A stretch of DNA of 55,537 bases, from NCBI GenBank assembly GCA_029936965.1, contig JAPYRG010000016.1, forward strand, positions 1 through 55,537, given 5' to 3'. The notes under the pieces are model-generated. The model saw only the letters and a list, made by a program, of their open reading frames with translations, did no database searches and had not been told where the DNA came from. Position 1 is the first letter of the stretch. Every line of letters begins with the position of its first letter. A program made the position numbers and the translations under genes. The DNA comes from Fidelibacterota bacterium. GTDB lineage: Bacteria; Fidelibacterota; Marinisomatia; Marinisomatales; TCS55. This document shows positions 9,773-11,268 of this stretch, piece after piece.

Positions 9773-10171
9773 TTGACCATCTTCTTTTCTTGGCATTTTT
9801 CCATTGCAAATAATCTTACATTACATAATAGATACAGCCCTCAAAATAGAGAGCTTCTTGATGAAGAAGAAGTTAGCATTATAAATGAAATTAAATCTAT
9901 TGATCAACATCTTGAATTAGTGAAAGCATATCCAAATCCTTTTAATGCATCTATTAATATTACTTATACAATCAATCATCGTTCAAACATACATCTGAAT
10001 ATTTTTGATCTAAACGGAAGATTAATTACAAATCATAATCTTGGAATGAAACAATCTGGAGACCAATACCTGTATTGGTCTCCAGATTGTTTCATTAGTT
10101 CAGGAACTTATTTATATAGTATAGAAAGCGAAAAAAATATTATTAATGGGAAAATATTATATCTTAAATAG
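9773..10171 (+). CDS. Small protein with type IX-type C-terminal sorting domain
   Basis: Read from a TTG at 9773 this is 132 residues: a hydrophobic export segment, about 35 acidic residues, and then a sorting domain starting AYPNPFN, with IFDLNGRLI, an SSGTYLYSI strand and the ending GKILYLK. Almost nothing besides the sorting domain is present, so there is no obvious cargo. The natural start appears to be the ATG at 9746, which gives MYRL, then TAG (9758-9760), then VQLILTIFFSWHFSIAN; with the TAG read through this would be a normal signal peptide. The gene may therefore be a recent pseudogene, use the weak TTG, or carry a sequence error. A perfect inverted repeat sits in the domain. It is convergent with the redoxin gene. 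Confidence 0.6.
   Translation: MTIFFSWHFSIANNLTLHNRYSPQNRELLDEEEVSIINEIKSIDQHLELVKAYPNPFNASINITYTINHRSNIHLNIFDLNGRLITNHNLGMKQSGDQYLYWSPDCFISSGTYLYSIESEKNIINGKILYLK
10045..10096. repeat. Perfect 25-bp inverted repeat within a coding region
   Basis: The arms 10045-10069 and 10072-10096 are exact reverse complements separated by 2 bases. They lie inside the sorting-domain gene, and the reading frame stays open and domain-like through both arms (KQSGDQYLYWSPDCFISSG). No T run follows, so it does not look like a terminator. It could fold as a 25-bp RNA hairpin or a DNA cruciform. Confidence 0.95.
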
Positions 10172-10779: not shown

Positions 10780-11268
10780 CTACGAATTTATTGCTTTTTT
10801 AACCGCTTCAATGAATCTCTGTTCATGATGCGAATTCTCCCAAAAATCTACGATAGAACCTGACAATTTTCCAAATACAATAGTAAATGGAAGAGTACCT
10901 GTCCAATCTCCATATAAACTATTAATAAACTCTTCATCAGGTTGATCTTTTATATATGCTTCTCCTTTAAAATTCATCTTTTTTAAATAATTGATAACAT
11001 CTTTTTCCTGCTCAAGCCAATCCGCGCTTACAAAAATTACCTTAAGATCTTGATGGTATTTTTCTCCTAAATCATATATAAACGGAAACTCCGCTATACA
11101 CGGTCCTCACCATGTTGCCCATACATTAATTAAAACTGCTCTCTTCCCTTTTTCTAATGCTGCAGCATCAAGCACATCTTGAGCAGTTACTCGAACAAGA
11201 TACCCTCTATCACAACCAATAAGGATAAATATAAAACTTATAAATAGTATCTTATATAGCTTGAACAC
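10780..11268 (-). CDS. Candidate selenoprotein: TlpA/thioredoxin-like lipoprotein with UGPC active site
   Basis: Reading through one in-frame TGA (11107-11109, codon 54) gives a complete 162-residue thioredoxin-fold lipoprotein from a GTG at 11268: signal peptide with lipobox ILIGC, then INVWATW-TGA-GPCIAEFP, VIFVSADW, and the cis-Pro segment TGTLPFTIVF. The TGA sits exactly where TlpA/ResA proteins have the first Cys of WCGPC. No other stop or frameshift occurs, and the downstream half keeps normal family features. TGA is an ordinary stop elsewhere here, for example in the gene ending at 1544. The best reading is selenocysteine, giving a U-x-x-C thioredoxin; a TGT/TGC to TGA nonsense mutation or a sequence error is the alternative. 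Standard gene callers would report only 10780-10977, starting at an internal Met. Confidence 0.72.
11074..11101 (-). promoter_or_regulatory. Candidate bacterial SECIS element after the in-frame TGA
   Basis: On the minus strand, 5 bases after the TGA, a hairpin forms with a 12-nt arm (11101-11090), a 3-nt loop GTT (11089-11087) and a 13-nt arm (11086-11074). It makes 12 pairs (three G-U) with one bulged U. The apical loop begins with G, 17 nt after the TGA. A short loop, a G among the first two loop bases and this spacing are features described for bacterial SECIS elements bound by SelB. AT-rich DNA makes chance hairpins common, but the four loop-closing pairs are CGGA/TCCG. Confidence 0.55.

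Follow-up and report, generated by a model that had tools for sequence, protein, structure and literature searches.

We report a hairpin that is almost certainly a bacterial SECIS element, and that would have an adjacent UGA read as selenocysteine (Sec) in a membrane-anchored, TlpA/ResA-like thioredoxin; SelB binding, Sec insertion and redox activity of the product are predicted from sequence. The hairpin lies in a stretch of 55,537 nucleotides from an uncultured marine bacterium of the phylum Neomarinimicrobiota (contig JAPYRG010000016.1, hereafter the window). A sequence-only reading had called it SECIS-like. This reading gains support since the genome encodes the Sec machinery, the core of the hairpin and its loop G are conserved in Sec but not in Cys orthologues, and a core at the same offset shows compensatory changes in homologous Sec genes. 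The features are as follows.

10780..11268, minus strand: predicted selenoprotein gene, thioredoxin-like lipoprotein with a WATW-U-GPC active site; 162 aa with UGA as Sec, listed start GTG
11107..11109, minus strand: predicted Sec codon, an in-frame UGA replacing the first Cys of CxxC
11074..11101, minus strand: predicted hairpin in full, with 12 bp, a single U bulge and GUU as its loop
11082..11094, minus strand: conserved core of the putative SECIS, GCGGA-GUU-UCCGU, 5 bp and a triloop, invariant in 5/5 Sec orthologues
11087..11089, minus strand: apical loop GUU, with its G at the third position of a GAG codon
10178..10771, minus strand: secreted redoxin-like gene with SCNTCPW, 8 nt downstream of the Sec thioredoxin gene

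The minus-strand gene (11268-10780) has a frame that stays open for 162 codons once the UGA is taken as an amino acid. Its product begins MFKLYKILFISFIFILIGCD, a leader that is lipoprotein-like by eye, and continues into a thioredoxin-like domain with UGPC where CGPC is usual. The Pfam models Thioredoxin, Thioredoxin_8 and Redoxin all score above cut-off, and the NCBIfam TlpA/ResA models give matches, all of them under the curated cut-offs; membership in the TlpA/ResA-like group is judged by a thioredoxin-like domain with CxxC or UxxC, which the protein has. Automatic annotation that treats UGA as a stop will truncate or miss this gene.

The genome (assembly of 2.14 Mb, 96.65% complete) appears equipped to decode Sec. 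A tRNA-Sec with a UCA anticodon scores 65.5 bits against a cut-off of 47 and lies on a different contig from the window; selA and selB are adjacent, and the SelB match spans positions 1-578 of the 581 in the model. The genome also has selD, with one in-frame TGA of its own (a Sec-containing SelD), and RF2, so TGA is not generally reassigned as a sense codon. Within the window, Rfam gave no match and ARAGORN no tRNA. Elsewhere in the phylum, a selD homologue (L155, G058:C50:17724-18650) lacks a TGA in its 748-aa open frame and is perhaps a fusion; the same genome has a second selD with a TGA.

Read on the minus strand, 11101-11074 is GUGUAUAGCGGAGUUUCCGUUUAUAUAU, which starts after 5 bases past the UGA (11109-11107) and folds as ((((((((((((...)))).)))))))) at -8.5 kcal/mol, with 3 of the 12 pairs being G-U. 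The sequence and geometry described earlier are thus confirmed: 12 pairs, one bulged U and a GUU loop (11089-11087) separated from the UGA by 17 nt. The coordinates were right as well; the strand, which had been omitted, is minus. A comparison with shuffled sequences had been proposed as a check, and the hairpin passes it at short range: 2/200 dinucleotide shuffles are as stable as the hairpin alone (z -3.2), and 1/200 as stable as the hairpin with UGA and flank (-11.9 kcal/mol), but wider stretches of 63 and 101 nt are unremarkable (z -1.0 and -0.8), as longer folding windows dilute the signal. Since the hairpin lies within coding sequence, a fair null must preserve the protein. For this null, each codon was redrawn among its synonyms at the frequencies seen in 17 long genes of the window, and as stable a fold arose in 1.5e-4 of 20,000 draws. 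The structure and the codon had been offered as independent evidence; they are not fully so, because one coding sequence supplies both.

The published bSECIS rules specify a loop of 3-9 nt, an upper stem of 4-16 bp, a G at loop position 1 or 2 or both, a UGA-to-loop distance of 16-37 nt, and a minimum free energy of -7.5 kcal/mol or lower (PMC13188914, Fig. 2). The claim that loop size, loop G and spacing agree with these rules was correct: the loop has 3 nt on a stem of 12 bp with one bulge (5 bp conserved), it reads GUU in 5/5 Sec thioredoxins, and it lies 17 nt from the UGA. Both energies of the window's gene (-8.5 alone, -11.9 with flank) are within the limit; some relatives in the genus fall short on energy only. 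The UGA is in frame at the position of the homologues' Cys, in a Sec-decoding genome, and compensatory changes occur at the same offset in the redoxin family. The loop has G first and U second, as in the model, and the conserved stem is short at 5 bp. In the SECIS of E. coli fdhF, a small apical loop with G-U follows the UGA at roughly 17-18 nt; the thioredoxin element resembles it in the apical G-U, the small loop and the similar distance. It differs in the bulge: the fdhF type has a conserved bulged U in the 5' arm of the upper stem, whereas the thioredoxin bulge is on the 3' side and is not conserved.

Among 245 genomes of the phylum Neomarinimicrobiota, 70 carry a clear homologue of the thioredoxin gene. 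A single in-frame TGA is present in 5/5 genus genomes with the orthologue, and orthologues of other genera have none. All five Sec genes, which belong to one genus, share the identical codons GCG GAG UUU CCG UUU; the string GCG GAG TTT CCG TTT is absent from all 38 Cys orthologues, a count that leaves out a spurious regular-expression match (L132). Protein identity to the window's gene falls as low as 68% among the five, and identical residues elsewhere use the same codon in 53/95 cases against the most distant Sec orthologue. The core holds three synonymous codons that are rare by the usage of the window (GCG, 12% of Ala; GAG, 21% of Glu; CCG, 7% of Pro), all of them frozen in the Sec orthologues.

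Conservation of the stem and loop G, a further check proposed earlier, holds for the loop G and for the five pairs nearest the loop, and fails for the lower seven pairs. The terminal pair of the conserved stem is G-U. Covariation of the core among thioredoxin orthologues is nil, as the core never varies. We rejected the full 12-bp hairpin as a conserved unit: its lower stem is paired in 74% of cells and has no double changes, and this AU-rich part is largely particular to the window's species and its nearest relative. The hairpins of three of the four genus relatives are weak, at -6.0 to -7.9 kcal/mol in 39 nt, around the published threshold of -7.5. In one genome, a second copy of the start of the Sec thioredoxin (L182, G002:C43 end) is cut off by the contig edge just past the UGA.

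A scan of AhpC/TSA-family genes in the window's genome revealed three more genes with an in-frame TGA. The UxxC redoxins L193 (G000:C6:5376-5954) and L194 (G000:C44:50815-51414) of this genome carry GCGGA-GGC-UCCGU/C at an identical offset from the UGA; its Cys paralogues have no such core. The same genome also has a peroxiredoxin-like gene with TPGU and one in-frame TGA (L185, G000:C2:64440-64823), another kind of selenoprotein; the hairpin that follows in this gene is weak (-6.9) and does not resemble the GCGGA core. Across the 245 genomes, the pattern TGA-N6-TGY-N3-GCGGAG-NN-TCCG gave 29 matches in 26 genomes, three of them in the window's genome and all 29 within open UxxCxAExP frames; a reversed control pattern gave 0 matches.

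As this pattern fixes the stem, we searched by protein with the redoxin, which left the stem free. The resulting set has 53 Sec redoxins; 18 (loci L204-L221) entered through the fixed pattern, and the varied stems all come from the unbiased protein search. Stem pairs covary in the set: GCG..CCG, TCG..CCG, GTG..CCA and GGG..CCC. The Pro codon is nearly always CCG if Ala, Ser or Thr (NCG) precedes Glu, CCA if Val (GUG) does, and CCC if Gly (GGG) does. Stem cells are paired in 94.6% of cases versus 84.4% when shuffled, with 0/2000 shuffles as high and slid stems at 28-55%; kinship alone can beat such shuffles, so the weight lies on the distinct pair types and not on the count. In 52/53 Sec redoxins the Glu codon is GAG, which supplies the loop G, and 8/9 Cys homologues use GAA there. 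The sole exception (L232, G110:C23:23086-23532) has GCCGA-AGC-UCCCG with GAA, and may rely on a different hairpin or reflect an error. One redoxin (L239, G021:C8:21043-21501) has two adjacent in-frame TGA codons (WUUPC) followed by a UCGGA-GGC-UCCGG hairpin, a possible double Sec or an assembly quirk.

SelD genes of the same order carry a covarying hairpin, CYCAR-GUN-YUGRG, with double changes and loop GU in 30/30. The first SelD hairpin (GGUC..GACC), at the UGA distance seen in the thioredoxin, was considered as the SECIS and set aside: double changes, and a loop that always begins with GU, are confined to the second hairpin. The compensatory changes in homologues that the sequence-only reading had named as a check are found, but in sister genes (redoxins and SelD) and not in the thioredoxin itself.

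These data bear on three other accounts of the hairpin. It could be a chance fold in AU-rich coding DNA, with the UGA a true stop, the mark of a pseudogene or a sequencing error; the 7-bp AU lower stem is not conserved, and long stretches fold no better than shuffles, as such an account would expect. Yet the same UGA and core recur in five genus genomes, the core keeps rare codons at its synonymous sites, and the reading frame is conserved and uninterrupted to either side of the UGA; frame and core in effect refute this account, and we give it almost no credence. It is comparably far-fetched that the UGA is read as another amino acid (e.g., Trp) or by leaky suppression with no SECIS involved. 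UGA is inherently leaky as a stop, which speaks for suppression, but the genome has RF2 alongside tRNA-Sec and SelA/B/D, and the in-frame UGAs found sit at redox Cys positions.

The core might instead act in some other way, for example by pausing translation or affecting mRNA stability, with Sec inserted through a different downstream structure. The loop of the covarying SelD hairpin is 33 nt from the UGA, versus 17 nt in the thioredoxin; the spacing between UGA and loop is thus flexible, which is a point for this account. It is nonetheless very unlikely, given that the core agrees with every rule of the bSECIS model and that, in two protein families, it occurs with UGA and is missing with UGU/UGC.

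On the SECIS reading, the element in the mRNA of the minus-strand gene would recruit SelB with GTP and Sec-tRNA(Sec), with the C-terminal winged-helix part of SelB contacting the apical loop. Sec would then be delivered at the UGA 17 nt before the loop, out-competing termination by RF2. Read-through would yield a thiol oxidoreductase anchored in the membrane, in which the Sec of UxxC acts as nucleophile. SelB binding, Sec delivery and competition with RF2 are established features of bacterial Sec biology.

The predicted protein has counterparts in earlier surveys. Sec is known to take the place of redox Cys as a general trend (PMC1794560). Trx-like 1 (UxxC) is among the commonest selenoproteins in marine GOS data, with 321 sequences (PMC2398784); that family (COG0526), likened here by description, shares with ours a thioredoxin-like fold, UxxC, a marine bacterial source and many Cys homologues. 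Redoxin or Prx-like thiol:disulfide oxidoreductase selenoproteins (PF08534/PF00578, UxxC) are also listed (PMC13188914). UxxC sits at the same position in these proteins, and in Sec redoxins from this phylum the SECIS core and its offset match those of the thioredoxin gene; in the tree, the family is separate from that gene. A table in an earlier survey of how bacteria use selenium names SAR406 single-cell genomes (PMC5029168), and our literature search found no paper on selenoproteins of Marinimicrobia as such. The element is a further example of a well-known kind; what it adds is a putative phylum-wide SECIS module and a genus-limited Sec/Cys switch.

The redoxin-like gene 8 nt downstream probably encodes a partner of the Sec thioredoxin, since the pair is kept in several Cys relatives too. 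It is also conserved in Fodinibius-type genomes (L028, L029). At 9773-10171 on the plus strand of the window, opposite to its neighbours, a short ORF whose C terminus has a sorting-like stretch of the YPNPFN type is conserved in the genus.

The Sec form of the thioredoxin is confined to one genus, and a single Sec/Cys change suffices on the tree (100% of bootstraps). The root is unsure, with the Sec genes drawn at the base, so a Cys-to-Sec direction rests only on the distribution among genera. The module is shared by two protein families of one genome, which raises the question of whether it arose twice or was copied. We tentatively propose, as a possibility short of an even chance, that a 13-nt module, NNGGA-GNN-UCCNN (N paired; mostly GCGGA-GNN-UCCGC; within UxxC-x-[A/S/V/G]-E-x-P), is phylum-wide, and that the thioredoxin gained Sec in one genus by building it at the homologous position or copying it from a redoxin paralogue in the same genome. 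If true, this would be a recent SECIS birth with Cys sister genes surviving for comparison. Bacterial SECIS elements overlap coding sequence and differ from one another, which makes them hard to recognise; this lineage offers a clean case, with Sec and Cys versions side by side, in which the amino acids and codons chosen at four adjacent residues are tied to RNA pairing.
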